Shown piece by piece: positions 9,206 to 29,494 of a stretch of DNA of 29,796 nt (its first letter is position 1; every line of letters starts with the position of its first letter). Source of the stretch: a virus. The translations under genes and the position numbers were made by a program. The notes under the pieces are model-generated. The model had not been told where the DNA came from. It searched no databases and worked only from the letters and a program-made list of their open reading frames with translations. Location of the stretch: IMG/VR virus record IMGVR_UViG_3300031566_000260, positions 1 to 29,796 of that record. One strand, 5' to 3'.

Positions 9206-12019
9206 CTACGCCGCTGCCGCGAATGACGCGTTGACGAGATGGATTGTGGTGGTGACGAAGTTGGTCGACTGCACAGGCGCGACCTCAAGATCCACCTTGG
9301 CCACGTCTCCGGTGATCTCTACGGTCAGGTTGCGCCACGCCGTGATCGCGAACTGGCCATTCGGGTTGGCCATCTCGATGAGCGTCGCGATGGCGATGTC
9401 AGCGATCGCGTTCGCGGAGCCGGCAAACGCCTTCTTCCCGATCGCCGCTTCGAGGTTGACCCGAAGATTGTACGCTACGAAGTTCACCGCTTCGTTGACA
9501 GCAGCCTCGACGTAGGCAGGGTTGTCGTCGATGAGGTAGGTCGTGACATTGCGCAGCCAGCGCCAACCGATGTTGTCCTTGTACTGCAACATGCAGAGCC
9601 CGGAATCGATCATCTCGTCGCTGTCATCTTGGATGTTGTACGAGGACTGTCCGATGACATCGAGCACATCGACGTACTTTCGAGTCAGCGACGTGCCAAC
9701 AGGAGACCCCGCCTGCTGCCCCGCGGCCAGACAGGCCGAGAAATACGGCGGAAACTGCTCTTCTTCGCCGTCCGTGTTGAACCGTACGATGTCCTGAATG
9801 CAGAGCCGGACGTGGCGGGTGTTGAGCGCCTGTGCCAGCGTCTTCGCTGCCGCCTTGGTCGTCCCAGAAGGGGCTCCCAGGACCGCATCGCGCTCCTGAC
9901 CACCCTGGCCTCCCATGTACACGCAGTGGGCCTTCACGGCGGCGTGTACGGCTGCGTCGTCGGTGAGCGCGACCACGGTGTTCGCGAACGTGTCACGAAG
10001 CACGTCGAGCGCCCCCTGCCAGTCGGCAAACGCCGTCGTACCCTCGACCCCGCCGGACAAGAAGACCGGGGACGCCGTGTTGTCTGGCACACCGGTCGCT
10101 GCAGCAGCCGCATCGGCCTCGACGAGCGCGGAGCGGGCGTTGATCGCAGCCACGAGCGCGGCCAGATCTCCAGTGAACGAAGCTGCGGCACCGATCACGG
10201 TCGTCGCGGCCTTGTCGTCCATGTCCGAGATCATCACGGTGCCGGATCCACCCGTCAGCGTGATCGTCCAGCCGCCGAGCGCGTTGAAGTGCGAGGCGAT
10301 GTCGTTGGCGACCGGGTACGAAGCCGGAGCCAGCACCGCCACGTCCCCATCGATCGTGAGCGTGCGAGCCGCTTCCACATGACCGGTCGCGATTCCAGTC
10401 AGACGAGACCAGGTCGAAACGCCTACCACCGGAACCGCACCGGCAAGCACGAGCTTCTCTGCCTGGGGAGAGCCGGTGGCGCCGAACCCGAAGAGCACAG
10501 CGGTCTGCGTCGTGGCGCCATCCGCCACGATGGAGTCGATCGCAGTCGACTTGAGCGCGATGTTGTCGATGAGGACCACACCTTGTGAGGTCTCAGCAGC
10601 CGTGATCGAGAACACCGCCACGGTGCCCGCTGCGTTGGTCACGGAGATGGTGCCGACAGCCGCAGCCGACAGCGTTGCCCCCATGATCTCGCTCCACGTC
10701 GCCGTTCCGGTCACCGCGACGGTGCCCGTCATGGTGAGCGTCTCCGACTGAGCGTCTCCGGAGTCGTCGAGCCCGTAGAGGGTGATCGTGCCGATGTCGC
10801 CCGCGGCGTCAGATACGACACGCGCCGCCTCTCCGACGTTGAAGATGAGCCCGGTCATCGTGATGGTGCGCGCCGCAGCGACCTCGCCGATCACAACGTA
10901 CTGAATCTCGCTCCAGAGCGTGATGGTTGGAACCGGAGTGGTCCCGTTGGTCGTGACCTTCTCCGACGTCGGCGTGCCCACGGAGTTGTCGCCGAAGATG
11001 AGCACGTCGTGCGACCCGCCGGCATCGAGGACGAACGACACGACCGTGCCGGCGACCTCCATGATGTCGGAGCCGAAGTGCCACAGCCCGTCGTCGGGGT
11101 CAGCAGGCGTGATCGTGATCAGTAGGTCGGAATCGCCGTTGTCGTCCACCGACACCGTTCCGGTTGGCGCCGTGAGCATGATCGCTCCTAGCACCTTTGC
11201 CCATTGCTGTGTTCCGACCACGGGGGTGACCCCCGTGAGCACCAAGGTCTCGGTCGCCGGATCACCGGTCGCGTTGTCGGTGCCGTAGATAGTGATCGAG
11301 CCCACGTCAGCGGCGTTGTCCGACACCACATTGACGACCGCAGCTGCGGTGATCGGGTTGGAAATGTCACCATCGAGACCAGTGGTCGAGATCGTGCCGA
11401 CATAGTCGGTCGAGAGCCCCGCCGCGGTCTTCGTGAACGCCGCGGTGACTCCGGTGGTGCGATCGAGCGCCATCGTCATGGTGTCGGCGCCGTTGGTACC
11501 GGGCACGTACAATGCCGTCCAAATGGGGTCGCCGCCGACGTCGTCGAGCACTTCAGACGTGTCCCCCAGAACGATCGTGACCTTCTTGCCCTGGACGGTG
11601 CCGGACTCGATCAGGAGGTTGATCTGCGTCGTGTACACGCCGTAGTCGAGACTCGTGATGTCGAGAGCGTCGCCATCGACATTCGAGAACGAAGCCGTCG
11701 AGCGAGTCGCCGGGTTCACCTTGCAATACTTGACCGCTTGGGCCCCACCCGGAATCTCGGGGTCATTCGAGCCCTGGAACAGCATCAGGCCCGACTCACG
11801 CAGATCGCCCTCACGGAAGGTCTCGTTGACCCGAGCCGGGTTGGTGATGTTGATGATCGGCTCAACCCCGTTCCACGGAGACCCGCCATCCGCTTCACCG
11901 AGGCAGGCGATGATGCCAGTGGCGCCGAGTCCGACAACGGCGAGGCCGCTCGCGTCGATCTTCGTCAGTGAAGACGGGGTCGACGTGGTACGACCGTTGA
12001 AAAACACCTTTGATGCCAT
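9206..12019 (-). CDS. Tail sheath protein, 937 aa, with duplicated beta-rich insertion
   Basis: The protein forms the contractile sheath around the tail tube. The first 130 or so residues, with GVEPIINITNPARVNETFREGDL and GGAQAVKYCKVN, and the C-terminal 320 residues, with IQDIVRFNTDGEEEQ, LTRKYVDVLDVIGQ and the end KVDLEVAPVQSTNFVTTTIH, look like the conserved sheath core, and the next gene is the tube. The length is about twice a common sheath size of 400-500 residues. The excess is explained by residues about 230-570, where two modules of about 170 residues follow each other; each has two subdomains with ITxYGxDxxG and ETLxxTG or a related pattern. The insertion probably sits on the outside of the tail. 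Confidence 0.88.
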   Translation of the reverse strand: MASKVFFNGRTTSTPSSLTKIDASGLAVVGLGATGIIACLGEADGGSPWNGVEPIINITNPARVNETFREGDLRESGLMLFQGSNDPEIPGGAQAVKYCKVNPATRSTASFSNVDGDALDITSLDYGVYTTQINLLIESGTVQGKKVTIVLGDTSEVLDDVGGDPIWTALYVPGTNGADTMTMALDRTTGVTAAFTKTAAGLSTDYVGTISTTGLDGDISNPITAAAVVNVVSDNAADVGSITIYGTDNATGDPATETLVLTGVTPVVGTQQWAKVLGAIMLTAPTGTVSVDDNGDSDLLITITPADPDDGLWHFGSDIMEVAGTVVSFVLDAGGSHDVLIFGDNSVGTPTSEKVTTNGTTPVPTITLWSEIQYVVIGEVAAARTITMTGLIFNVGEAARVVSDAAGDIGTITLYGLDDSGDAQSETLTMTGTVAVTGTATWSEIMGATLSAAAVGTISVTNAAGTVAVFSITAAETSQGVVLIDNIALKSTAIDSIVADGATTQTAVLFGFGATGSPQAEKLVLAGAVPVVGVSTWSRLTGIATGHVEAARTLTIDGDVAVLAPASYPVANDIASHFNALGGWTITLTGGSGTVMISDMDDKAATTVIGAAASFTGDLAALVAAINARSALVEADAAAAATGVPDNTASPVFLSGGVEGTTAFADWQGALDVLRDTFANTVVALTDDAAVHAAVKAHCVYMGGQGGQERDAVLGAPSGTTKAAAKTLAQALNTRHVRLCIQDIVRFNTDGEEEQFPPYFSACLAAGQQAGSPVGTSLTRKYVDVLDVIGQSSYNIQDDSDEMIDSGLCMLQYKDNIGWRWLRNVTTYLIDDNPAYVEAAVNEAVNFVAYNLRVNLEAAIGKKAFAGSANAIADIAIATLIEMANPNGQFAITAWRNLTVEITGDVAKVDLEVAPVQSTNFVTTTIHLVNASFAAAA
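10310..10822 (-). repeat. Sheath insertion module 2 (subdomains A2 and B2)
   Basis: This encodes residues about 399-570. A2 begins VVSDAAGDIGTITLYGLD and contains ETLTMTGT and GTISV; B2 has VLFGFGATGSPQAEKLV, STWSRL and EAARTLTI. A2 resembles A1 and B2 resembles B1 more than A resembles B, so the unit that duplicated was the pair. The exact right end is uncertain. Confidence 0.7.
10823..11330 (-). repeat. Sheath insertion module 1 (subdomains A1 and B1)
   Basis: This encodes residues about 230-398 of the sheath. A1 begins VVSDNAADVGSITIYGTD and contains ETLVLTGV and GTVSV; B1 begins HDVLIFGDNSVGTPTSEKV and contains TLWSEI and AAARTITM. The same order of motifs recurs in the next module about 170 residues later. 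Confidence 0.75.
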
Positions 12020-17620: not shown

Positions 17621-19141
17621 CTACGCGTTGGCGCCAGTCGGGAGCTTGCCCACGTTGATGAACATGCCGCAGTAGCGGGGCTTCATGAGCTGCAGCGCAC
17701 CGTAGAGCACCTGCATCCAGCGGATCGAGGTGTCGATCGTGGCGAGGGGGATCTTGGTGAACGGTGCGAGCTGCTTCCACTTGAAGACCTCGCTGCTCTG
17801 CGACAGCAGGTAGCAGCGCGCCGTGTTCGGCAGGAACCGGTTGAGATCCACGATCGTCTGGGTGTTGCCGGTACGCGGCACCCGGAAGATCGTACGGCAG
17901 GTCGCCGCGGTGCCGTCCTTGTCCGAGCGGTAGACCTCGTAGTAGGACGTGTCGGGCCCGTTGTCGGTCACCCCGATCGACACCTGGTCGCCGGAAGACA
18001 CTGCGATCGATGCGGACGTGGTCGGAGCCGCCTTCCCGTACCGGGAGCCAGCGACCACCTTGTAGATGTAGGTGCCGGCATCGGAAGCGGTGAAGTACGC
18101 CGTGTTGGCCCCAGCGTAGGCGGGCGACGTCGGCGCAGCGACGGTCGGCGACAGGGGCCGCTTGGACGCCTTGCCGACACCGGATGCCTGCGGCACCGTG
18201 GACTGCGGGATGAAGATGTTCGGGTTGATGTCGATGTCCCCGAACGGAGTGCGCAGCCCCTTGACGTCGATGCCGACGCGACCGTTCTTGTCGGGCTTGT
18301 CGAGATCGTAGCGCCCCTTCGGGTACATGATCTTGGACAAGTCCTTCACAGGCCCGGTCGGTGCCCACAGGTCGCTCGGCGACCCGTAGTTGGGCTCGGC
18401 GACGAGCTGTTCGGTGAGGTCGGTGATGACGTCCTCGGTGAGCGGCTCGTTGCGAAGGTCGATCACGTTGGTGTCGTCCTCGTAGCCGAGGTACTGACCG
18501 TCCTCAGCCGTCGAAGAGCCGAACGCCTTGGCCATCAGCGTCTCGATGCCGTCGAACTGGATGGGGACGTAGTCCTCGTTGCCGACGAAGAGGTTGCGCT
18601 CGATCTGCCGGAGCAGGTGGAGCGTGCCGTTGACGGTCTCGCGGGCCACTGCGGAGCCGTGTGCGGCACGGATCGTGCTCATCACGTGGGTCACGCGGCG
18701 AGTGATGCCCATGAACTTGATCTTGGTGTACTGCCGGCTGTACGTCGAGTCGTCTTCCTCGGGGAGGTCGCCCTCTCCGATGAAGATCGCGTCACCCGAA
18801 CCGTACTCTTCGAGCCGGTTGAACTCCTCGACCGTGTTGTAGGCGGGGTCCTTGGCGATCATCTTCCAGAACTTGATCTTGTCCGCCGAGTACGTGACGT
18901 TGAACAGCGTGCTGTCCAGCGACTCGACCCTCAGCGGAAAGCCCTCGCCTGCGCTCGATCCGGGGTTGTTGATGTCGCTACCGGCCGCGAGCGCCTTGTT
19001 GAGCGCGTCGACCTCACCAGCGGAGTGCACCCCGCTGTAGACGCCATCGCTGTCGTCGACGTCGAACGTCGGCATGCCGCCGGCACCCATCGCGTGAGAA
19101 CCGACTCCCGCGTAGTCCGACCAGCTGACCATTCCGTACAT
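17621..19141 (-). CDS. Major capsid protein, 506 aa
   Basis: The ATG at 19141 has AGAGGAG six bases upstream. The frame is open further upstream but without a good start. The N-terminal 85 residues contain KALAAG (49-54) and ESLD with LF and Y spaced as in the protease tail, followed by DKIKFWKMI and AYNTVEEFNRLEEYG, a pattern I associate with capsid proteins of large contractile-tailed phages. The region 330-440 looks like an inserted FN3/Ig-type beta domain (TYIYKVVAGSRYG, SYYEVYRSDKDG), perhaps exposed on the capsid surface. The end (FTKIPLATIDTSIRWMQVLYGALQL) is conserved-looking. Placement after protease and scaffold and before a strong terminator supports the call. The fold is presumed HK97-like. 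Confidence 0.85.
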   Translation of the reverse strand: MYGMVSWSDYAGVGSHAMGAGGMPTFDVDDSDGVYSGVHSAGEVDALNKALAAGSDINNPGSSAGEGFPLRVESLDSTLFNVTYSADKIKFWKMIAKDPAYNTVEEFNRLEEYGSGDAIFIGEGDLPEEDDSTYSRQYTKIKFMGITRRVTHVMSTIRAAHGSAVARETVNGTLHLLRQIERNLFVGNEDYVPIQFDGIETLMAKAFGSSTAEDGQYLGYEDDTNVIDLRNEPLTEDVITDLTEQLVAEPNYGSPSDLWAPTGPVKDLSKIMYPKGRYDLDKPDKNGRVGIDVKGLRTPFGDIDINPNIFIPQSTVPQASGVGKASKRPLSPTVAAPTSPAYAGANTAYFTASDAGTYIYKVVAGSRYGKAAPTTSASIAVSSGDQVSIGVTDNGPDTSYYEVYRSDKDGTAATCRTIFRVPRTGNTQTIVDLNRFLPNTARCYLLSQSSEVFKWKQLAPFTKIPLATIDTSIRWMQVLYGALQLMKPRYCGMFINVGKLPTGANA

Positions 19142-19158
19142 GATGATCTCCTCTGAGA

Positions 19159-19170
19159 TGAATTTAAGTT
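19159..19170 (-). promoter_or_regulatory. AT-rich patch ahead of the capsid gene (weak promoter candidate)
   Basis: In the 61-base gap before the capsid gene the minus strand reads AACTTAAATTCATC, an island of A and T in G+C-rich DNA, about 20 bases upstream of the start codon. TTAAAT could be a -10 element, but no good -35 partner is present. An unstructured leader that favours translation is an equally good reading. Confidence 0.2.
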
Positions 19171-19202
19171 GAAGGGGTTGGAGCCGAAGAGACCGCCGCC
19201 GA

Positions 19203-20156
19203 CTAGCGGAGGGCGTTCTCGATCGACTGGTAGGTGGTCTTGTGGATGCGGCTGGTCGACTCGAACACCGCGGACTGCTCGGTGAGGCTCTTCGCGAGCT
19301 TGTTGTCACCATCCTCTGCAGCGGACTTGACCAGGATGCGGAACCCGTGAAGGATCTGCTCCCGCTTCAGGCCGTCATCCGCGCTGTCGTCACCGATCAC
19401 CGACTTGTTCAGCGGTCGCTTCCGGTCCGGACCCTTGGGAGTCTGGTGCGCGCGACGCGACGCCGGCTGACGCTCGACGTCGTCGACCCGACCACGCAGC
19501 GACTTGATGATCTCGGTCTGCTCCTCTACGATCTCGCCGAGCGACATCGAGTAGCCGGCGAGCATGCGCACCATGTCGCCCTGCGCCTTCACCAGGTCGC
19601 GGGTCTGGGCGCTCTCCTGCGAGATCGCCTCGTGCACCGACTCCAGGCTGTCGTCGATGCTAGCGGTGAGCGACTTCAGGAAGTCGTTCGCTCGCACGAG
19701 ACGGGCGCTGTCGGGGTTGTCGTCCTCGATGCGCTCCGAGAGGCTCTTGCGCATCGGCGTGCCGCGCGAGTCATCCTCACCCATGAGAAGGTGACCGAAC
19801 TCGTTGCGCTCGGACTTGGTGATCGTGCCGTTGTCCATCCGAGCACGCAGGTACGCCTCACGGCTGCCACCCTGGGTCTGGATGCCGTCCTCGATGGTGT
19901 CGTAGGTGTCGATGGACTTGCGGAGAGCGTCACCGTCGACCTTCAGCGACTTCTCGGCCTCCTCTTCCTCTTCCTCCTCCTCCTCCTCGTCATCGTCGTC
20001 GTCGTCCTCCTCTTCCTTCTCCTCGTACTCGGCCTTGGACATCGGGTCCTTGCCCGCCTTGCGCATGGCCGCGGAGTAGTCCCCGTACCCCAGACCAGCA
20101 GGGCGAACGCCCTTCTCCAGGGACTTGATGAGGTCGGAAATCTTGATCCTGCGCAT
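19203..20156 (-). CDS. Head scaffolding-like protein, 317 aa, with acidic tract
   Basis: The ATG at 20156 follows an AGGAG ribosome binding site that spans the protease stop. The protein starts basic (MRRIKISDLIKSLEKG), carries an almost pure Asp/Glu run at about residues 44-66, and continues as Lys/Glu-rich, probably helical sequence, with a candidate coiled coil near 165-230 (SLEEIVEEQ-like heptads around GEIVEEQTEIIKSLRGRV). No enzyme motif is visible. Its place between a prohead protease and the major capsid protein, plus the charged helical composition, is the classical setting of a scaffold removed by the protease. It could instead be a packaged internal head protein; sequence alone does not decide. 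Confidence 0.7.
   Translation of the reverse strand: MRRIKISDLIKSLEKGVRPAGLGYGDYSAAMRKAGKDPMSKAEYEEKEEEDDDDDDEEEEEEEEEEAEKSLKVDGDALRKSIDTYDTIEDGIQTQGGSREAYLRARMDNGTITKSERNEFGHLLMGEDDSRGTPMRKSLSERIEDDNPDSARLVRANDFLKSLTASIDDSLESVHEAISQESAQTRDLVKAQGDMVRMLAGYSMSLGEIVEEQTEIIKSLRGRVDDVERQPASRRAHQTPKGPDRKRPLNKSVIGDDSADDGLKREQILHGFRILVKSAAEDGDNKLAKSLTEQSAVFESTSRIHKTTYQSIENALR
19957..20025 (-). repeat. Low-complexity GAG/GAT codon run encoding an acidic tract
   Basis: A purine-rich run on the minus strand of repeated GAG, GAA, GAC and GAT codons encodes a stretch of about 20 nearly uninterrupted Asp and Glu residues inside the scaffold-like gene. Such trinucleotide runs tend to vary in length between relatives through slippage. 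Confidence 0.85.
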
Positions 20157-20159
20157 TTC

Positions 20160-21044
20160 TCACACTCCTGCGATCGCGCGGTTGATGATTGCGTCGATCT
20201 CGCTTTCGTCGAGATCGGGCATTTCGGACTTGACGACAAGACGAGCTTCGTCCATCGTGAATTGAGGAGCCGGGCTCACCCGGGACATCGCCGGGGCCCA
20301 AGAGGCGACGAACCCGAACTCGTCGATGTCGTCCAACTCTCCGGAGATCTCGGACTTGTGGACTTCGCCGGTCGTATCGTCGTCTTCGTCTTCGGTCGTG
20401 TCATCGCCTGCGTACTCGATGTCGAACAGCTCGTCATCGAGACTTTCGGTGCGCAGCGCGGCGCCCGACCCGGGGCCGGCGTTGATGTCACCGGATCCGA
20501 TCGCGTGACCGGCAGCCAGCGCCTTCGCCAAGAGCCCCAACTCCGTCTTGTCGTTCACCGGGCAGTGAGTCACCGCAACGTTGCGCACAACCGCCTTGGT
20601 GACTCGGCTCGCGTCTCGTGGATGCCGCGAGAGCACCTTCCCCTCGATCGAGAAACCGAGTTTGCGCGGTGCGTCTTCGAGCGCCTTGACGAGACCCCAC
20701 AGCTTGCGCCCGTCGTCGGTGTTGAGCAGGTAGCCCTCGGCCCACCAACCGTTCGACTTCGCGATCCGGCCATTTGGGAGCTTCTTGCCCTTCTTGACGT
20801 AGAAAGCCGCGGTTGGGTAGCCGACAACGCCAGCCGTCTGCTTGGAATGGTTGTCGTTGAACCAGCCTTTCGAGAGGAAGGGCTTGAAATCGAGCCCCTC
20901 CTGCACGATCCGCTCCCCGTCCTGATCCAGGTCGTCAGTCGAAACGAGTCCACCGATGAACATCGGAGTTTCCGCGTCGCTCTTCTCGAACGCAGTCAAC
21001 TCCGCATGGACCGTGAAATCGATTTCTTCGGGGGTTGCGACCAA
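20160..21044 (-). CDS. Prohead maturation serine protease (HK97 gp4/U35-like), 294 aa
   Basis: The protein matches the pattern of prohead proteases that cut scaffold and capsid proteins inside the procapsid: GGLVSTDDLDQDGE near residues 31-44, the likely catalytic His in NDNHSK (H66), the likely catalytic Ser in GFSIEGKV (S132), and NVAVTHCPVND at 155-165. The acidic C-terminal tail follows a KALAAG...ESLD segment (about 174-210) that also occurs in the capsid protein. I chose the TTG at 21044 because GGAG lies six bases upstream; the in-frame TTG at 21080 lies inside a hairpin. The stop is three bases before the scaffold gene. The catalytic assignment follows the known family pattern; a third catalytic residue is not assigned. 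Confidence 0.87.
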   Translation of the reverse strand: MVATPEEIDFTVHAELTAFEKSDAETPMFIGGLVSTDDLDQDGERIVQEGLDFKPFLSKGWFNDNHSKQTAGVVGYPTAAFYVKKGKKLPNGRIAKSNGWWAEGYLLNTDDGRKLWGLVKALEDAPRKLGFSIEGKVLSRHPRDASRVTKAVVRNVAVTHCPVNDKTELGLLAKALAAGHAIGSGDINAGPGSGAALRTESLDDELFDIEYAGDDTTEDEDDDTTGEVHKSEISGELDDIDEFGFVASWAPAMSRVSPAPQFTMDEARLVVKSEMPDLDESEIDAIINRAIAGV

Positions 21045-21061
21045 CTCGATCTCCAAACGTG

Positions 21062-21098
21062 AAAAAGGCGGCGACCTCAATGAGATCGACCGCCTTTT
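21062..21098 (-). terminator. Hairpin with T run between the zinc-ribbon and protease genes
   Basis: AAAAGGCGG (minus strand, from 21098) pairs with CCGCCTTTT, with additional interrupted pairing inside, and TTTTT follows on the minus strand at 21066-21062. It is near-symmetrical and could act in both directions. It would end transcripts from the giant-gene region or act as an attenuator in the leader of the capsid cassette. It argues against the in-frame TTG at 21080, which sits in the hairpin, being the protease start. Confidence 0.6.
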
Positions 21099-21128: not shown

Positions 21129-21158
21129 ACAGTAATCCGGTACTCGATCCGGGGTCAA
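21129..21158 (-). promoter_or_regulatory. Candidate promoter for the capsid cassette
   Basis: On the minus strand TTGACC (21158-21153) is followed after 18 bases by TACTGT (21134-21129), a fair match to a sigma70-type -35/-10 pair. It lies in the longest non-coding gap of the window, directly ahead of the protease gene. Such weak matches occur by chance, so this rests mostly on position. Confidence 0.3.
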
Positions 21159-21400
21159 GAATCTTCGCTGTCAATCACGAAGACCACTCGCCGTCGGCCG
21201 CTTGATGAAGTAGGAACCTCGATCGATTTGGACAGCTGGCCGCCGCAGACCAACTCCACTTCACCACGACAGTAGCGGCAGGGCCCGTACACGGTGCCAT
21301 CGGCTTTCACCAAGGTGATCGCCAGCCCACGCACGACCATCCCACCCTGGGGAGCGGCGGTGCCAACTGCGCGACTACAGTGCGGGCAGCGCAGCTTCAC
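21155..21400 (-). CDS. Small zinc-ribbon protein, 81 aa
   Basis: The GTG start at 21400 overlaps the preceding stop (GTGA). Two CxxC pairs are visible, CPHC at residues 5-8 and CRYC at 41-44, with a further Cys at 52; the about 32-residue spacing is typical of a zinc ribbon that binds one zinc ion. The middle holds beta-type sequence (GGMVVRGLAITLVKADG). Small zinc ribbons are common in phages as DNA- or protein-binding adaptors, but the sequence does not say which. It is the last gene before the capsid cassette, and its stop overlaps a candidate promoter for that cassette. Confidence 0.7.
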   Translation of the reverse strand: MKLRCPHCSRAVGTAAPQGGMVVRGLAITLVKADGTVYGPCRYCRGEVELVCGGQLSKSIEVPTSSSGRRRVVFVIDSEDS

Positions 21401-21705
21401 TCGGGGCCGATCCCGTAGAAGTCAGCAGTAGACCGAACGCGGTCAGTCATCGAGACGTCGAGACGCACCGATGCCTCGGCGATCGCCTTCAGGACCGCCT
21501 GCAGCCCCTCACGCCCATGCCACTTCAAGAGGACCCCGCATACCTGCTGGTCCTCGATCCATGCGTTGTAGTAGAAACAGTCATGCTCGGTCTCACACGC
21601 CGCCATCTTCACGAGCTGCCCCTCGAAGTCGTGGAGCGGGGCATCTGGGAACGGACCTTCCAGGAGCCACCGCAACTTCGGTAGGGGGATTTCCGTGATC
21701 TCCAT
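21397..21705 (-). CDS. Hypothetical protein, 102 aa
   Basis: The ATG at 21705 lies one base beyond the TGA of the giant gene, with GGAG about eight bases upstream inside that gene's end. A longer frame reaches 21777 but would overlap the giant gene by 70 bases without a better start. The protein (MEITEIPLPKLRWLLEGPF...) has Cys and His residues (ACETEHDC, QQVCGV) but no regular zinc spacing, and no membrane segment. Its GTGA overlap with the downstream zinc-ribbon gene indicates translational coupling. I recognise no family; a small accessory head or packaging protein is possible by position. Confidence 0.7.
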   Translation of the reverse strand: MEITEIPLPKLRWLLEGPFPDAPLHDFEGQLVKMAACETEHDCFYYNAWIEDQQVCGVLLKWHGREGLQAVLKAIAEASVRLDVSMTDRVRSTADFYGIGPE

Positions 21706-21706
21706 C

Positions 21707-24700
21707 TCACAACTCCAGGAAGAGGTCGGTTTCGAAGCTCTTCTGAACCTTCGACGTTGACTCGATCGCAGACGCATCGACTGTCATCATGTCCAAGTCC
21801 GTACGAATAGGGGTCTTGTCCTGCACGGTCTGCAGGAACTCCTCGATCGCGGTGAACCTCGACCGGCCAATGGCGCGCACACGTGCTTCGGGGATGATCG
21901 GGTTCTGCCGCTCGTAGCCGGTGAACACCTTCTGCGGCCCCACCTTCACGATACTCGGCACCTCTGCAGCGACCCCGAGGCGCGTGACGTTGACGAGGAA
22001 CTTGCTCTCCTTGATCACCGCACGGTCCATTGGAGTGAGCCCGTCGATGATCTTGTTGACCACGTCGCTCGACTGGACGACGGCTCCGCCAGCTGCCGTG
22101 CGCATCTCTGCTCCGACCACATCCAGCTGGTCCTGAACGAAGAGCATCACCTGCATGCCTCGAATCGCGAGGTACACCTCGGTCGGGTCGAGCGACTTCC
22201 GCTGCTTCTTGGCGGCGTCCTTCTGGTACAGGTGCGCGCTGAGCAACTCGGTTCGCTCCGTCTCGGTCAACTGGTTGATCGCCTCCGTGAGAGCAGCAAC
22301 GGGCCCCTTGATCGCGGTCCGACCACCATACGTCCCCTTGGTGACGTCGGTGTACGAGCCGATTCTCTCGAAGTCGATCACATTTCGAGTCCCGCCCGGC
22401 ACCGGCGTCTGCTTCAGCGTCGTGAACGCCATCCGCGCAGCCTCACCACCCAGCGTAGCTGCGACCTCCGCCTTCGCAGCGATCATCTGCCAGGCTTCCC
22501 GGGTCTTCTTCGCCGACGCCTTGTTGCGGGCGTACTCCGCGACCGCCAGAAGCCCAGCATTGAAGTCGATCTCGCCGCCAACAGGCGTTCCGTCGATCTC
22601 CATGCCCAGAACCGTCCCAGTCACGTTCATGGTCGCAACGGGACCGAAGATCTCGTGCTCCATCTCCATGAGCTTGCCCACCGGCCCCAGCGAGCCATCT
22701 GGACGTTGGATGAGTTCCGGCGGGATCGGATCGGGCAGAAGCCGCGCTGCGCGCGTCATCCGCTGCCACTCCGACATCGGCGACGAAAGCGAGTCGTAGT
22801 TGATCATTTCGGGCGCGTTGCCCCAGTTCATCCCGGTGTTCGCCGCGTCACTCGCGACCATGCCGACAGTGTTGTTGAACACCGTCATCTGCTTCCTGTC
22901 GAGCGGAGGCGTCTTGATGGCGTTCTTCTCAACGAGATCGTGGTACTCCTTCGCGAGCGCGTCAACGCGCTTCTGCGCAGCTGCTCGGCTGTCCTTCGGG
23001 AGCCGGTCGATGTTCCCGATATCTTCGATCTCCTTCAGAATCTTGTGCGAGTGGGGCGTACCGTAGAAGTACGACTGCACACCGTCCTTGACGAAGTACG
23101 CCTCGGGCGCCTGAATCTTGAACTGCTGGAAGATCTGAACACGGGCGTCTGCCGACCACTGGCTCAGCTGGACGTCGGCGTGGTGGGCCCAGCTGCGCCC
23201 CTCCATGCATCGATCGACGAACACCGACACATACGAGTCCCGGTTCCGTCGATCCTTCATCTTCTTGAAGACCTCGGAGTTCAGTTCGCGAGTTCCGGTG
23301 TAGTTGCTGCCGATGTAGGTGACGTAGTAGTACCCGTTGCCCGGATTGGGGTCGCTCGGGTCGTACTCCCTCGACCCCTGAAGCGCCTCATTCACGTCCT
23401 TGAAGCCCATGAGACGCATCACGGATTCCGCGACCCGGCACGACTCCAAAATGCCACCACCGAAGATGATGAACTGCCGCGCGTTGCCCTCGCTTCGATC
23501 GGAAGTACGCATCAACTCCTCGATACGGTTCATGATCGACTCGGCCTTTGCGTTGCCTACCACGTTCACGATGTCGAACTGATGACGCTCCGCGCGCATC
23601 CCGGGGTCTAGAAGGTTGAGCACACGCGCCTTGACCTCCCGCTTTGACACCCAGACGGTCTCGCCGCTGTTCTCCTCGATCAACGCTACCTTGTCGCCCT
23701 TCTCGCCGAGAGCTGCGTTGTACTTGAACGACGGAGCCTCCCATTCGGCGAGCGTCGAACGCTTCTCTTCCTCCCACTCCTCCTTCGTCATGTCCTTCGG
23801 CTTCGCACCGAACTTGGGCTTGAACTGCTTGTCGAACCGTTCGGGGATCTCAACCCGATCGCCATCCTTGACGATCTCAAACCCGCCCGCCGACTTTGGC
23901 TTGTTCAACTCTCGATCCCAGTCCTCCTTGCGGAAGGGAAGGTGGAGCGACCCCCGCTTGTCGGACACCCAGTACTTCCCCTCAGGGACTGTGACCTTGT
24001 GCTTGCCCTCGCCCCAACTCACTGTGTCATGATGTTCGATCTGCGTGGAACGAGTCCCTAGCAATCGCTGTCCCTCATCCGCAGAAATGCCGTTCATCCG
24101 CGACACCAGATCCAACACCGCTTGCACGTTGGCGCCCTTCACCGTGACCAGCTCCTTGATCCGCGAAAGATGCGCTTTCGCGTCACCGGGCCAAGCTGGC
24201 GGGACCATCCTCTTGATGACGGCTCGAAACTCACGCTGGAACTTCTGGGCACGGTCCCACAGCTCCGGGTCCGTTGCCCGGATCGTATCGCTCCCTCGGC
24301 AGATGATCCCCAAGGGTCCCTCTTCGGGGTTGATGACCTTGCTCGGCCACTTGATCGTGTCACGCACCCACTTGCCACCCTCTTTGCGCGCGATCTTGTT
24401 GAGCTGCGCGGTCGTCACTTGCGTGCCAGAAAGCTGCTCGTACGAGTCGACCCCCATCTCACGCAGCGCCTTGTGCATGTGCAAGTTGTACAGGCCGGTG
24501 ATCTCGTCTCCAAGCTCCTCTGCGGTCGGCCACAGACCGGCGAGCTTGCGACGCACCTTCGCATTGGTGATGTCCGGGCGATCGAGCAGCCACTGCGGGT
24601 CGAAGGGGATCCAGTTCTCGGACTCGTCCTTGAACGCCTTATCTGACTCCTCACCCTGTGCGACCTTGCGGGTCACCTTCACGAACAGGTCTTCCGATGC

Positions 24701-27700
24701 CGCCTTGTAGGCGGGGTTGTTGGCGATCGCCTTCGCCTGCTGGATGGCGACCCCGCCGGACCCGGACATCACCCGTCCCTCCTCCTCACGGGACAGCCCT
24801 GCTCGGCCTTCGAGTGCGCTCCGGTCGGAATCCGACAGCTTCGAGATCTTGGACGCGTACAACAGAGCTTGAGTGCCGACCATCTCCTCGAACTCGGTCT
24901 CGTTGATGCGCACCGCGGGCAGCATCTTGCCCTTGACGTCCTTGGACATCGCGATGTCCATGTACTGCGACAGCGTCGCGGCCACGTCAGCGATCTTGGT
25001 CGGCTTGAGCGTCAAGCGCTCGCCCTTAGCCTCCTTCTTCGTCAGCCCGACGTCCTGCGGAATGGTGGACTCGTCGCAGTACAGACGCTCCCACTCCTTG
25101 GTGGTCATGTCGCCCCAGATCTTCCCACCCGACAATGTCGTGATGTACTCCTTCACGTCACTGGTCGCGCGAGTCATGGGCGTCCCGGTCATCATCCCAA
25201 GCGCGGTCTGCTGCCCCTTGGCCTCCAGCTCGGCGAAACGCTCCTGCACCTTGTCCAAGATCTTGGCCAGCTTCGAGTTCTCGTTCTTGCTCCCCTTGTG
25301 CGCCTCGTCCTGTAGAAGCCCGGACAGGTCGAGCCCCTTGTACGTCTTTCCGTCGATCACAACCTCTGCATCGAGGAATTTCTCCCAGTTGCGAGTGAAG
25401 TACTCGGGGCCAACGAGCAAGATCTCGTCGGTTGCGCCTGACTTCAGGTAGGTGTCGATGCTGGTCATGTCCGATGCCGCACCGATCACCTTGCACCCGT
25501 CGTTGAAGTCGAAACAGGCGTCGCGCCACTGGCTGATGACACTCAGCGGGGAGAGCACGATCGTTCTACCGAGCGGCTTCTTCTTGGCGATCTTGCCCCA
25601 CATATCGCTCTGCATCACCTTGATCGTCGACAGACCAGTGATCGTCTTGCCGGTCCCCATCCAGTGCGTCCAGAACCACCGACCCCCGTTGTCCAGCGCC
25701 TTCAGCATGCCGCCGATCTGATGCCGCGGCAGCGTGAAAGTTCGTCCTTTCACGACTCTTTGCAGGTGGACACCCTTATCGATGAGCTTCCCCATTCGAA
25801 TGGCACCGCCATGCGCCTCGGCGTACTCGGCATCGAGTTCTACGAGATCTAGAGCATGGGATTCGACCTGCGATCGAGCGGCCTCACGAACCTCCTCTGC
25901 ACGAGCCTCGATCGCGCGACGAACGTCGTCGGTCATGTTCAACATGCCGAACCGGTTCCGCATCTGCGCGAAAGAGTTGAGGCTGATGTCGATCGTCCCG
26001 GTCTCCTTGTCAACCGTAGCCCCCGGAATCGAGAACACATCGAATGTGACGGAGCCGTCTCGCGGCATGAGCAGCCGCACGCGAGCGTTCTTCACATCAC
26101 CGGTCGCAGCGTGGAGATCTTTGTACATGTACGCCAACACGTTGTGCTTGAGCGGGTCTGGAACAGAGCTGTGCTTTGTTCCTTCGATATCCCGCAACAG
26201 CTCCTTCCTGCCGTACCTCACGATCTTGCGACCGGGCATCCCCAATCCAGCAGCTGTCCAAAACACAAAGCGCTCGGGCAGGGTCCTCGCCGTCTCTTTT
26301 GCCAGAGTCAACTGCCACTGCTCGTATGCCGGCTCGTAGACTTTCCGAAGCCAGTCGCGCTGCTCGTTGGTTCCGGCGTACCAGCCCGGCAGCAGACCGC
26401 GATCAATCAACTCACGCTCACGTTGGCGCAGCTTCGGCTTCTTCTTGCCGTCAGTGCCTGCAAACGGGAGATACTCAGAAACCGTCTCCGGCATCCGATC
26501 CCACCCCGGAGGCGACGGGACTTCCCCGGCCTTCTTGGCGGGGAGGATGGATTCGAGACGCGCAGCGACCTGACGACCCTCCTTGCCCCTGATCTCGTCA
26601 TTGCGCGTGTTGATGACGATCAACTCTCCGCCAAAATCGTCCGGATTGGCGTTAGGGTTCTGCGCCAGGGCGACCGCGGCAGACTTGTAGCTCTCGACCA
26701 TTTCTTCGACGATCTTGCGAGGCTTCGCCGTTTCGACGATCGAAGGACGAATCGTCTCACCCTTCAACAGCGGATTTCCGGCGTTGTCACGGTCCAGCAA
26801 CATGTCGAGCCGCGGTTCCGACGATCCGAGCATCCGCTTCCACTCGTGACCGACCAGGAGCGGAGACCCGCGACCATCGAACTCGACCTGCAAGTGCAGG
26901 TAGTTCGGCTGACCGCGCCCTGAAGTCCTGGTCCGCACAGAGACCCAGATGCGCCGCCGCAGCGTTGCAGCGTCCGCGCAGAGCTTCTTGAGATCTGACG
27001 CCTTCCGAATCGGCTCGTTGTTGGGCGTGAGCAACGCCCGCCACACCGGGTTCGCGATGTGGAACGCGCCGGCATGCGGCCCCTTCAGCTGCCGCTCACA
27101 CTCGATCTCCGTGTACGTCCCATCCGGATTCGGGTTGCGGTAGCGAATGGTGTGCATCCGCATGTTCGCCTTGCCGTGCGCTGTGAAGTCGATGATCGGC
27201 ACCCGCCGAATCACCCGTCCACGTGCGTCGCGCTCCAACTTGAACGCCGTGTTCGGCTGCAGCTTCAGGTACTCCTTCTCCAGCCGAATCCGCTCTGCGC
27301 TGCCCGCTGGGAGAGAGGCGATTGCCTGGACCAGGTCTTCGCCGGCCGCCTCCCAACGATCGAACACGAACGTGCCGGAGCGCTGCCGGAAGGTCGTCTC
27401 ATCGATCTCCACCGGCATGAGCAACTCGATCTCGTCTACCGCCTTCTTCGCAGCCTCCAGCAGCTTGTCGGCGCCCTTCACACCCCTTGCTGCTTCCTCT
27501 CCGTAGCGCCGAACCTTCATGACCTTGTGCGTCATGTCAGCCATCTTCCGACCGATCTGCCGCGCGTCGACCGCCCTCTCGTTCTCCGGTCCGTAGATCG
27601 CAGCCTTGTCGAAGGCGATGAGTCGAGACGGGTTCCACATTTCACCCTTCTGCGGCTTCCACCCGGGCGGCGGCTCATCAGGCAGCTCGTCCTGCTCCAG

Positions 27701-29185
27701 GTAGTACATCGCCGACAACGTCGACAACGCGTTGCCGTCGGCGTCATAGACTTCCTTGATCTCGTTCGCTCCGAGCTGGTACCGGCCGGTGCCGTTGGGG
27801 TCCCACTTCGACTCGTCCCCGACACTATCGGGGTTCCAACCACTGAAATCCTTGTCGGGACCGGACTTCCCGATCCGCATGTAGATCATGCGTCCGTTGC
27901 GGTGCATCTCGTAGAACTTGTCCTTCGGATGCGTGTAGACAGACCCCTTGGGCGCCTTCTTCGAGTCGGGCTCGGTGCGCAAGAGCGCCTGCACCTTGGT
28001 CTCGGGCTGCTTCCACCAGGTCAGCTTGGTGCTGTCTTCCGGCGTCTGCATGATGCCCCGACCGTAGTGCTCAGCCAGTTGCGCCTGCTTGAACGCTTCG
28101 CCAGCATCGTCCTTCCTTCCAGCGACTTCGAGCGCCTTACGCGCTGCGCGCCACTTGCGACGATCTGAAGCCCTGGGAGCCGGGAACCCTTGGATGGTCT
28201 CGGTGGTAAGCGGCAACATCGTCTCGTGCCCGATGAAGTCCCGCATCCACTCGTACATGACCGGCGCAGCGTGAGCGAGCTGCTTCGGGTACAGCAGCGC
28301 CGCCGCAAACGACTCCGCAAACCGTTCGTGGGAGTTCTTCGCCCCTCCGGCCCCCTCAATCTCCGCCCCGCCCGTGACACCCGCTTCTCGCTGCGCCTCG
28401 TCCTTGTAGAACTTCTCCCACTGCTCGGAGAGCTTCTCCATCCCCTTGGGCGGGTTGTTGTCCAGCCGGTTGAGGAGCGCATGCCCGATTTCGTGCATGA
28501 TCGCGTCGGTGGCCCACGTGCCGCCACGAAGATGCGGTCCACGTCCGACACCGGCCGACTGAACCTTCTCGGGGTCAATATCGATCGTGCTCGTGCCATC
28601 ACCATGAATATGGCATCTGCCAGCAGAGTCCTTAGACGTCTTCTTGAACTCGATCGCGGACACTGTCCCATCGAACGCTTCACGCAGCCCAGACGGCAGA
28701 CGCTGCAGCGCCATCTCCAGCGACCGGAAGACTGACTGCGGAAGACCCATGATGTCGTCGGGCTCGGCTCCGCCGTAGTAGGAGGAAATCTCCTCATGGT
28801 ACGGCTTGGCGACCTCTTCAGGCGCGATCACACGAAGCTGATGCTTTCCACCCCACAACCCGCCGAGGTACTCCGTGTTCAGCTTCTTGAGCGGCATCCG
28901 CGCCTGCCTGAGCGGCGGAAAGTCGACCTCGAACTGCACCTGGGTGCGGTGTTCGGCCATCTCCTCGGCTTCGCGCTTGTTGGCACGAAACTTTGCACGA
29001 CGTCGATCGTAGTCGGCCTTGTCTTCGGCGTACTTCTTCCGACTGGTCTCGTTGTCGTAGTAGTAGTTGTACCGCATGCGTCCTTGCGCATCACGCCCTC
29101 TCGGGACCCGTCGCCAATACTTGTGGTTGGCGCGCTGGTCGCCGATCGCCTTGTAGAGGTCGTCGTTTTCGATGACGAAGATCAT
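21707..29185 (-). CDS. Giant polyvalent-type protein: zincin metallopeptidase plus SNF2/DarB-like helicase (2492 aa)
   Basis: The ATG at 29185 follows a GAGG-type ribosome binding site. Seen in the sequence: a basic, Tyr-rich N-terminal element near residues 22-45 (KYWRRVPRGRDAQGRMRYNY), similar to linker motifs in phage MuF and polyvalent proteins. A metallopeptidase motif HEIGH lies at residues 231-235 with a candidate third ligand in ERFAES (E291). A helicase region follows: Q-motif-like LPRHQ near 1155, GTGKT at 1177-1181, SPLSVISQW near 1215, DEAH at 1293-1296 and TGTP at 1333-1336. After an insertion of roughly 550 residues come a motif-IV-like FIIFGGG near 1903, SDAANTG at 2112-2118 and QRMTRAAR at 2141-2148. 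I see no NPPY-type methyltransferase motif, unlike what is known for P1 DarB. The location just before the head genes suggests a protein packaged in the capsid and injected to protect or process DNA; that is inference. Confidence 0.85.
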   Translation of the reverse strand: MIFVIENDDLYKAIGDQRANHKYWRRVPRGRDAQGRMRYNYYYDNETSRKKYAEDKADYDRRRAKFRANKREAEEMAEHRTQVQFEVDFPPLRQARMPLKKLNTEYLGGLWGGKHQLRVIAPEEVAKPYHEEISSYYGGAEPDDIMGLPQSVFRSLEMALQRLPSGLREAFDGTVSAIEFKKTSKDSAGRCHIHGDGTSTIDIDPEKVQSAGVGRGPHLRGGTWATDAIMHEIGHALLNRLDNNPPKGMEKLSEQWEKFYKDEAQREAGVTGGAEIEGAGGAKNSHERFAESFAAALLYPKQLAHAAPVMYEWMRDFIGHETMLPLTTETIQGFPAPRASDRRKWRAARKALEVAGRKDDAGEAFKQAQLAEHYGRGIMQTPEDSTKLTWWKQPETKVQALLRTEPDSKKAPKGSVYTHPKDKFYEMHRNGRMIYMRIGKSGPDKDFSGWNPDSVGDESKWDPNGTGRYQLGANEIKEVYDADGNALSTLSAMYYLEQDELPDEPPPGWKPQKGEMWNPSRLIAFDKAAIYGPENERAVDARQIGRKMADMTHKVMKVRRYGEEAARGVKGADKLLEAAKKAVDEIELLMPVEIDETTFRQRSGTFVFDRWEAAGEDLVQAIASLPAGSAERIRLEKEYLKLQPNTAFKLERDARGRVIRRVPIIDFTAHGKANMRMHTIRYRNPNPDGTYTEIECERQLKGPHAGAFHIANPVWRALLTPNNEPIRKASDLKKLCADAATLRRRIWVSVRTRTSGRGQPNYLHLQVEFDGRGSPLLVGHEWKRMLGSSEPRLDMLLDRDNAGNPLLKGETIRPSIVETAKPRKIVEEMVESYKSAAVALAQNPNANPDDFGGELIVINTRNDEIRGKEGRQVAARLESILPAKKAGEVPSPPGWDRMPETVSEYLPFAGTDGKKKPKLRQRERELIDRGLLPGWYAGTNEQRDWLRKVYEPAYEQWQLTLAKETARTLPERFVFWTAAGLGMPGRKIVRYGRKELLRDIEGTKHSSVPDPLKHNVLAYMYKDLHAATGDVKNARVRLLMPRDGSVTFDVFSIPGATVDKETGTIDISLNSFAQMRNRFGMLNMTDDVRRAIEARAEEVREAARSQVESHALDLVELDAEYAEAHGGAIRMGKLIDKGVHLQRVVKGRTFTLPRHQIGGMLKALDNGGRWFWTHWMGTGKTITGLSTIKVMQSDMWGKIAKKKPLGRTIVLSPLSVISQWRDACFDFNDGCKVIGAASDMTSIDTYLKSGATDEILLVGPEYFTRNWEKFLDAEVVIDGKTYKGLDLSGLLQDEAHKGSKNENSKLAKILDKVQERFAELEAKGQQTALGMMTGTPMTRATSDVKEYITTLSGGKIWGDMTTKEWERLYCDESTIPQDVGLTKKEAKGERLTLKPTKIADVAATLSQYMDIAMSKDVKGKMLPAVRINETEFEEMVGTQALLYASKISKLSDSDRSALEGRAGLSREEEGRVMSGSGGVAIQQAKAIANNPAYKAASEDLFVKVTRKVAQGEESDKAFKDESENWIPFDPQWLLDRPDITNAKVRRKLAGLWPTAEELGDEITGLYNLHMHKALREMGVDSYEQLSGTQVTTAQLNKIARKEGGKWVRDTIKWPSKVINPEEGPLGIICRGSDTIRATDPELWDRAQKFQREFRAVIKRMVPPAWPGDAKAHLSRIKELVTVKGANVQAVLDLVSRMNGISADEGQRLLGTRSTQIEHHDTVSWGEGKHKVTVPEGKYWVSDKRGSLHLPFRKEDWDRELNKPKSAGGFEIVKDGDRVEIPERFDKQFKPKFGAKPKDMTKEEWEEEKRSTLAEWEAPSFKYNAALGEKGDKVALIEENSGETVWVSKREVKARVLNLLDPGMRAERHQFDIVNVVGNAKAESIMNRIEELMRTSDRSEGNARQFIIFGGGILESCRVAESVMRLMGFKDVNEALQGSREYDPSDPNPGNGYYYVTYIGSNYTGTRELNSEVFKKMKDRRNRDSYVSVFVDRCMEGRSWAHHADVQLSQWSADARVQIFQQFKIQAPEAYFVKDGVQSYFYGTPHSHKILKEIEDIGNIDRLPKDSRAAAQKRVDALAKEYHDLVEKNAIKTPPLDRKQMTVFNNTVGMVASDAANTGMNWGNAPEMINYDSLSSPMSEWQRMTRAARLLPDPIPPELIQRPDGSLGPVGKLMEMEHEIFGPVATMNVTGTVLGMEIDGTPVGGEIDFNAGLLAVAEYARNKASAKKTREAWQMIAAKAEVAATLGGEAARMAFTTLKQTPVPGGTRNVIDFERIGSYTDVTKGTYGGRTAIKGPVAALTEAINQLTETERTELLSAHLYQKDAAKKQRKSLDPTEVYLAIRGMQVMLFVQDQLDVVGAEMRTAAGGAVVQSSDVVNKIIDGLTPMDRAVIKESKFLVNVTRLGVAAEVPSIVKVGPQKVFTGYERQNPIIPEARVRAIGRSRFTAIEEFLQTVQDKTPIRTDLDMMTVDASAIESTSKVQKSFETDLFLEL

Positions 29186-29188
29186 GAT

Positions 29189-29494
29189 TCAGCCTCGCCC
29201 GACAGCGCACAGGTAGGCGCCGGGGATTGAACGCACCGCAGCTTCGAAATGGCCGATCTCGCCAGGACCGCGAGTGTGCATGAAGTGAGAGATCTCGTCA
29301 CCGTCCACAGCGGCTGACTGCACACCGATGGGCTGTCGCAGATGGTCAGCCAACGTATGCAAGAAGTCCATCGAGGCCACGGAAGGGTCGCTATCGACCA
29401 TGCGATAGCCGTCCGGAGTGTCTGCCTGTTCGAGCGTGCAGCCATACCGCGTGTAGGGCTCGTGATCGAACTGACGCCAGATGTGATACTTCAT
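29189..29494 (-). CDS. Hypothetical protein, 101 aa
   Basis: The gene starts with ATG at 29494, nine bases after the preceding stop, with a GAGG-type ribosome binding site across the junction, and stops three bases before the giant gene. The protein begins MKYHIWRQFDHEPYTRYG and is a soluble mixed-composition polypeptide with no membrane segment, signal peptide or known motif that I recognise. His residues are scattered (HFMHTRG near residue 70) but form no clear metal site. Its tight spacing to both neighbours suggests co-transcription with the head genes. The function is unknown. Confidence 0.7.
   Translation of the reverse strand: MKYHIWRQFDHEPYTRYGCTLEQADTPDGYRMVDSDPSVASMDFLHTLADHLRQPIGVQSAAVDGDEISHFMHTRGPGEIGHFEAAVRSIPGAYLCAVGRG

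Follow-up and report, generated by a model that had tools for sequence, protein, structure and literature searches.

A giant zincin-SNF2 protein encoded among phage head genes: a probable virion cargo with an N-terminal motif that may be a shared packaging tag

A zincin peptidase and an SNF2 double-strand-DNA motor are united in a protein of 2492 amino acids encoded next to the head genes of a virus represented in IMG/VR, and we conclude that this giant is probably a phage-type polyvalent protein carried as virion cargo. The family to which it belongs supplies an example of a zincin fused to an SNF2 motor in a chain that lacks a methylase. A second and distinctly more tentative proposal is that uncultured SPO1-like and related phages might load many unrelated effector enzymes into their heads via one shared basic/aromatic tag of about 30 residues, which takes the form GW-IPGG-GGYRKR-GWxYWYP in InPase, ART, ParB, GNAT and methylase-SNF2 proteins and the form HKYWRRV..GKLxWxYYY at the N-terminus of the zincin-SNF2 giants.

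The window analyzed here is the whole IMG/VR virus record, 29,796 bases in length. The gene for the giant, delineated from the ORF and its homologues, occupies positions 21707..29185 on the minus strand and runs from an ATG at 29185 to a stop at 21707-21709 through 2492 codons without an internal stop. An earlier sequence-only reading of this DNA had described an uninterrupted frame with a series of motifs, each of which was found at the residue given there, namely HEIGH (231-235), E291, GTGKT (1177-1181), DEAH (1293-1296), TGTP (1333-1336), SDAANTG (from 2112) and QRMTRAAR (from 2141).

With the single window sequence as the query, no relatives were found in PHROGs, in 50,697 phage records or in IMG/VR, and the route to the family was the major head protein, a relative of which is encoded in five IMG/VR records. 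A search of four of these five for the giant located it in one, a virus record of 98 kb, which encodes a homologue of 2635 aa in the same place, 39% identical over the full-length alignment. A 104-kb record (L006; 43% head protein) gave no match to the giant and encodes a relative of the 340-aa protein described below; another giant-less record stops just upstream of the protease. Altogether the giant was counted in 20 IMG/VR records including the window, 17 of them examined together and three added later (L073, L096 and the record of L072/L110), the latter all from a motif scan, with profile scans supplying further members among the 17; in this count some giants are cut at the contig end, the pairs L025/L026 and L035/L036 look nearly identical, and L111, a weak match over about 78 residues, is left out. 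In the four closest pairs, dN of 0.44-0.52 is low against a dS that reaches 2.6 in one pair and lies beyond range in three, which points to purifying selection. Among cultured phages, neither the window protein nor the L039 giant had a match in the 50,697 phage records at 1e-5; the L036 query matched four phage records and the P0002 query 93 (at E 0.1), the matches listed lying only around the common helicase lobe for both queries, and no full-length relative was found among the matches listed. Scans of species-representative genomes yielded 63 and 21 stretches fitting the patterns used, none of which was confirmed. Five matches, to nanobodies and a lysozyme inhibitor, look like chance and were set aside.

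The zincin metallopeptidase domain (residues about 98-322; 28220..28894, minus strand) was assigned by structural alignment with VIA, by Foldseek and by profile. Structure prediction and profile searching had both been put forward in the sequence-only reading as checks on its zincin and helicase assignments. The AlphaFold2 model of residues 1-1150 has a mean pLDDT of 61.5, rising to about 80 over much of 150-320, and gives a zincin fold at 98-322, which VIA-align places with the lethal-factor protease domain (Z 11.0, 177 aligned residues, 3.7 A) and PPEP-1 (Z 8.6), both among the best rows; the best Foldseek match for the same residues is again the lethal-factor protease domain (E 9.6e-4). A sequence profile of 11 members, from which L039 was left out, independently ranks PPEP first, with a weak E of 0.005, and individual relatives match Pfam Peptidase_M90 (L021, 7.5e-6, just under the cut-off) and Peptidase_Mx1 (L036, 0.0013, under the cut-off). 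As modelled, residues 98-322 share the zincin fold of the M34-like (lethal factor/PPEP) group, a fold that carries no substrate information. The active site is intact in the window protein: HEIGH (28481..28495, minus strand) corresponds to an HExxH present in 15 of 16 aligned rows and also in L110, and E291 (28313..28315, minus strand), the likely third zinc ligand, to a Glu in all 16. Over 17 members the single exception is the giant of L039 (L039:5345-11878), in which both zinc histidines are lost (REVGR) and the SNF2 motifs and the N-terminal motif are kept; self-processing by the peptidase is therefore not required in every member of the family.

The motor consists of SNF2 ATPase lobe 1 (residues about 1150-1450 with GTGKT, DEAH and TGTP; 24836..25738), assigned by Pfam and a PDB profile, an inter-lobe insertion of about 400 residues (about 1451-1850; 23636..24835), which is defined by alignments and poorly modelled, and helicase lobe 2 (about 1851-2160 with motifs V and VI; 22706..23635), which matches Helicase_C and is strongly conserved, all on the minus strand. 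In the window protein the Pfam matches fall under the curated cut-offs (SNF2-rel_dom 1.4e-4, Helicase_C 2.9e-4); in relatives, SNF2-rel_dom reaches 1.1e-16 (L020), 4.3e-11 (L021), 2e-16 (L036) and 4.7e-19 (L039), and Helicase_C lies above the cut-off in L020, L036 and L039. The profile of eight members matches Rad54-like 1z3i in PDB at E 3.3e-15, so that the SF2 helicase recognised in the sequence-only reading can be placed in the SNF2 class. All 12 rows retain motif I, and motif II reads DE[AV]H in 11 and DEAQ in one. The model of residues 1395-2492 has a pLDDT of 53.1, and a fold search with it yielded nothing usable. The giant of L021 (L021:6606-15137) carries an intein within Walker A (Pfam Intein_splicing 1e-5, under the cut-off), and the relative of the 340-aa protein encoded next to it (L021:1585-3567) has another Hint/intein match.

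The SNF2 lobes, and only these, match the PADLOC defence helicases PbeA, DrmD, BrxH, ZorD, DpdE and HmaA, with a best E of 2e-8 in L036 and of 2.9e-4 in the window protein; such similarities fit defence and counter-defence alike. They could be taken to favor an anti-competitor protein, carried in the virion or expressed, that blocks competing phages or plasmids within the cell, and superinfection blocking has been raised for polyvalent proteins (PMC5512222). We find this improbable given the limitation of the matches to the helicase lobes, the absence of nuclease and methylase domains from the five giants scanned with Pfam, and the late-operon position.

The two long stretches, of about 800 and 340 residues, for which the sequence-only reading could name no match shrink somewhat and still resist assignment. 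The middle region (residues 323-880, about 560 residues; 26546..28219, minus strand) had no PDB match at E 1 with a profile of 10 sequences, and a viral scan with this profile confirmed 13 loci, 12 of them in giant-family records and one a weak partial match (L111). For the C-terminal region (residues 2161-2492, about 330 residues; 21710..22705, minus strand), the best E against PDB was 0.12, which is no credible match. Between the middle region and the motor lies a linker, AGEVPSPPGWDRMP (PSPPGWDRMP; residues 886-899; 26489..26530, minus strand), conserved in part of the family: PGWDRMP occurs in six of the 17 aligned giants and, in another alignment, in six of the nine with residues at this place. 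The linker is conserved though it lies within a low-confidence stretch of the model, and it might be a docking site or a cleavage site, conceivably of the Pro-Pro type.

The position beside the head genes, already noted from the sequence alone, is conserved. In the window, the giant is followed downstream on the same strand by a small gene, a CxxC gene, the protease, scaffold-like and head protein genes, the tail sheath and baseplate genes. The respective products are a small protein of family c10 (21397..21777; E 3e-18), an 81-aa protein with CPHC and CRYC of family c11 (21155..21400), the head maturation protease (20160..21080; phrog_1028, E 2e-40), a scaffold-like protein (19203..20156; family profile, E 1e-61) and an SPO1-like major head protein (17621..19312; phrog_752, E 7.6e-76; about 34% to the SPO1 group), all on the minus strand; scaffolding gp3.3 of SPO1 clusters with the relatives of the scaffold-like protein in L020, L027 and L028. 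The tail sheath (9206-12019) was assigned by a PHROG match, and, at 937 aa versus a PHROG length of 489, it has a long part that appears repeat-like by eye. The upstream neighbor of the giant is a 101-aa protein (HIWRQF..PYTRYG; family c3; 29189..29494, minus strand) present in 13 of 14 stretches.

Across the 17 records, the gene order is portal, a 182-aa protein, a 340-aa protein, an InPase-type protein, a 105-aa protein, the giant, two small proteins, protease, scaffold and head protein, some records having a short extra family that separates the 182-aa gene from the 340-aa gene. Counting only the stretches that reach the gene concerned, the protease lies downstream of the giant in 11 of 11 (the remaining six records end inside the giant) and the head protein in 9 of 11 (L021 and L027 end before it), and upstream lie the InPase-type protein in 13 of 13 (by profile) and the portal in 7 of 7; the two small downstream proteins are present in 10 of 11 stretches each and the 105-aa protein in 13 of 14, L039 being the exception. 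Among the later finds, L110 repeats this order for portal, InPase-type protein, giant, protease, scaffold and head protein; in L073 and L096 the InPase-type protein adjoins the giant, with no portal profile match in the L096 stretch. By Pfam, the InPase domain was detected in the scanned neighbors of L021, L027, L028 and L022 and was not found in those of L020, L023 and L024; among polyvalent domains, InPase is listed as phage-type only (PMC5512222). One head-operon protein (L022:5710-7515, G002) combines InPase with the catalytic core of a eukaryote-type topoisomerase I (topoisomerase IB; PF01028, 8.5e-16).

A fixed place between portal and maturation protease would also suit a head-assembly factor, which would take part in procapsid maturation or DNA packaging within the cell that makes the virus, without any need to pass into the next host; a peptidase joined to an ATP motor is in keeping with this, as is the indication, in PMC5512222, that such peptidases may process before packaging. 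We nevertheless consider this explanation unlikely, given that in SPO1, which has a related head protein, the portal directly adjoins the protease with no giant block between them (the block is either an addition or was lost by SPO1), that the 104-kb record had no giant match despite its related head protein, that the neighboring proteins bear InPase and, once, topoisomerase IB, and that the 98-kb relative encodes a separate terminase. We know of no head-assembly role for InPase or topoisomerase IB.

The 98-kb relative also encodes a DNA polymerase A, a Toprim protein and, under the cut-off at 1.1e-5, a DnaB_C-like protein, and with these proteins and the terminase at hand the giant is probably not the replicative helicase. 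More generally, a role in phage replication or recombination, in line with the SNF2/SF2 motor and with the proposal that SNF2 helicases of some jumbo phages function in recombination (PMC7824862), appears very improbable for a motor that is fused to a peptidase and encoded next to the maturation protease in every stretch that reaches it. Elsewhere in the same genome lies an N6_N4_Mtase (2.3e-7), which could conceivably serve as a separate methylase partner of the giant.

The N-terminal tag of the window protein (residues 18-47, HKYWRRV...GRMRYNYYY; 29045..29134, minus strand) was delineated from conservation and from the model, in which it forms a beta hairpin (strands 25-31 and 37-43) at low pLDDT. 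Among the first 1099 windows of 27 residues, residues 18-44 (HKYWRRV…YYY) show the top conservation, beaten only by the overlapping 17-43, with a score of 0.71 for the tag stretch versus 0.47 around HEIGH and 0.62 around E291; over the whole protein, 173 of 2465 windows outscore it. The expression HKYx[RK]R...G[KR][LM]x[WY]xY[YFW]Y fits all 16 distinct giants with an N-terminus and no others of 6199 ORFs (from overlapping loci). Some of these 16 were found through a tag-derived pattern; at least nine that were found otherwise or do not fit that pattern (those of the window, G002, L027, L028, L036, L039, L073, L096 and L110) are all tagged.

The second form, of about 30 residues (GW-IPGG-GGYRKR-GWxYWYP), is shared by neighboring cargo proteins and unrelated polyvalent proteins, in which it precedes or separates the enzyme modules and is present up to twice per protein. 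A looser pattern applied to 1790 six-frame ORFs of 22 loci gave 28 matches, all in giants or large cargo-type proteins of the same operons, versus a mean of 0.67 in 30 shuffles; the motif expressions were made after examples had been seen, and the shuffle counts are descriptive only. A scan of virus contigs with a DNA pattern for GWxYWYP, which comes with controls and is more independent, although known copies supplied the pattern and giant-bearing phages the head-gene profiles, returned 53 stretches with 59 matches. Of the latter, 27, spread over 21 loci, fall within ORFs of 140 aa or longer that show the upstream consensus; the remaining 32, whose ORFs measure 2-265 aa, do not pass this test of ORF and consensus and served as the control. 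A portal, protease, scaffold or head protein was recognised in 13 of the 21 motif loci versus a head gene in none of the 32 control loci (mean stretch 9.9 kb versus 8.4 kb), and head genes or the giant in 17 of 21, L074 and L080 sharing motif copies; without the four loci of records already known for the giant, the figures are 11 of 17 for head genes and 14 of 17 for head genes or the giant.

Eight motif carriers chosen from the 21 loci were scanned with Pfam. The domains found were SNF2 and N6_Mtase (L075, with the tag twice), ddrB-ParB (L082), ART-PolyVal (L074), InPase and GNAT (L067) and a weak N6_Mtase (L058); three carriers had no Pfam match, and in none of the eight did a Pfam match at E 0.01 overlie the tag. 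The L075 protein (L075:1185-7754) is a methylase-SNF2 protein of DarB type with 2189 aa and two YWYP tag copies, and neither the giant nor a head gene was recognised within its 8.4 kb stretch. The two tag forms are possibly related, the link being weak at the sequence level: hhalign gives a probability of 14, rising to 64.5 (E 6e-5, over only 10 columns) when members with intermediate forms such as HKYLKRERRIIGGKLRYVYWY in L073, L096 and L110 are included. The 48-residue N-terminus of the giant and a 33-residue motif string found nothing significant in cultured phages, and no motif-bearing stretch was found in plasmids. Another aromatic/glycine motif, GGPYIGPKGGxxADPQH, lies near the N-terminus of cargo-type proteins in L039 (L039:2210-5095) and L110 (L110:3491-6604) and may be a further address form. 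We propose that the N-terminal tag is a capsid-targeting (packaging) label; alternatively, it could function as a hairpin that binds nucleic acid or as a signal for processing. We know of no description of the tag in print, going by a literature search on YWYP in phages alone.

Under the virion-cargo reading, the giant would be produced from the late head operon, as gene order and strand suggest, docked into the procapsid through its N-terminal basic/aromatic stretch, packaged in the virion and injected, leaving the head together with the DNA. Given its SNF2 class and the analogy with DarB, the motor might then track the incoming duplex and strip or block host proteins, for example restriction or other defence complexes, which would amount to a defence-countering role. 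One member keeps motor and tag although its zinc site is lost, and for this reason we see the motor as the core function and treat the zincin as secondary, an accessory that may cleave either a host protein or the cargo itself. Phage polyvalent proteins are thought to be injected, and how so many different ones reach the heads is, to our knowledge, an open question. If the tag proposal is true, new effectors could join the payload by fusion to the tag, a short motif common to unrelated effectors encoded in the same head operons would allow the packaging route to be tested with a reporter, and the motif alone could serve to find new injected effectors.

Among known systems, P1 DarB (2255 aa) resembles the giant as a very large head-linked protein with an SNF2-type motor; it is a 250-kDa head protein packed via its first 30 residues in about 40 copies, and BLAST gave no consensus among the N-termini of P1 Dar proteins according to the authors (PMC9024508). 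The label 'DarB-like' given in the sequence-only reading holds for the shared superfamily, the SNF2 core, and fails beyond it. DarB has an N6_Mtase (1.4e-7, Pfam), SNF2 and its own PHROGs (such as 1685 and 10089); in contrast, Pfam scans of five giants (window, L020, L021, L036 and L039; E limits 1, 1 and 0.01) revealed no methylase, and of four giants scanned against PHROGs the window protein had no match and those of L027, L028 and L036 matched phrog_62, which P1 DarB does not match, L027 also touching phrog_11801 in the helicase part (8.5e-4). Conversely, no zincin was found in DarB, and the giants' tag motif is absent from DarB as from the other P1 head proteins of the Dar set examined (DdrB, DdrA, DarA and Ulx). 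Membership of the DarB family was accordingly rejected; with an hhalign E of 6e-5 (probability 65, 147 columns), the helicases of the giant and of DarB are probably distant kin within SNF2.

The Pro-Pro endopeptidase PPEP-1/Zmp1 and the lethal-factor protease domain share fold and zinc motif with residues 98-322 of the giant but only about 14-19% identity over the aligned part, and the giant is encoded in a phage head operon. The kinship with polyvalent proteins suggested in the sequence-only reading is borne out by at least two unrelated enzyme domains and a late virion gene context. The giant resembles the phage-type polyvalent proteins (Iyer et al., 2017; PMC5512222) in its very large size, several unrelated enzyme domains, SNF2 ATPase, late-gene position and InPase neighbors, and in a zincin HExxH with a downstream Glu in the following helix, a common, though not universal, feature of the class that is present in the window member; it differs from them in the absence of an adenine methylase from the five giants scanned, a zincin nearest to lethal factor/PPEP and two long regions without a match. 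P1 DdrB, described as processed and packaged into the head and as having a C-terminal zincin (PMC5512222), is likewise a zincin-bearing head-packaged protein, as the giant would be if our proposal is correct, but it carries a ddrB-ParB domain where the giant has SNF2, and its zincin lies at the opposite end.
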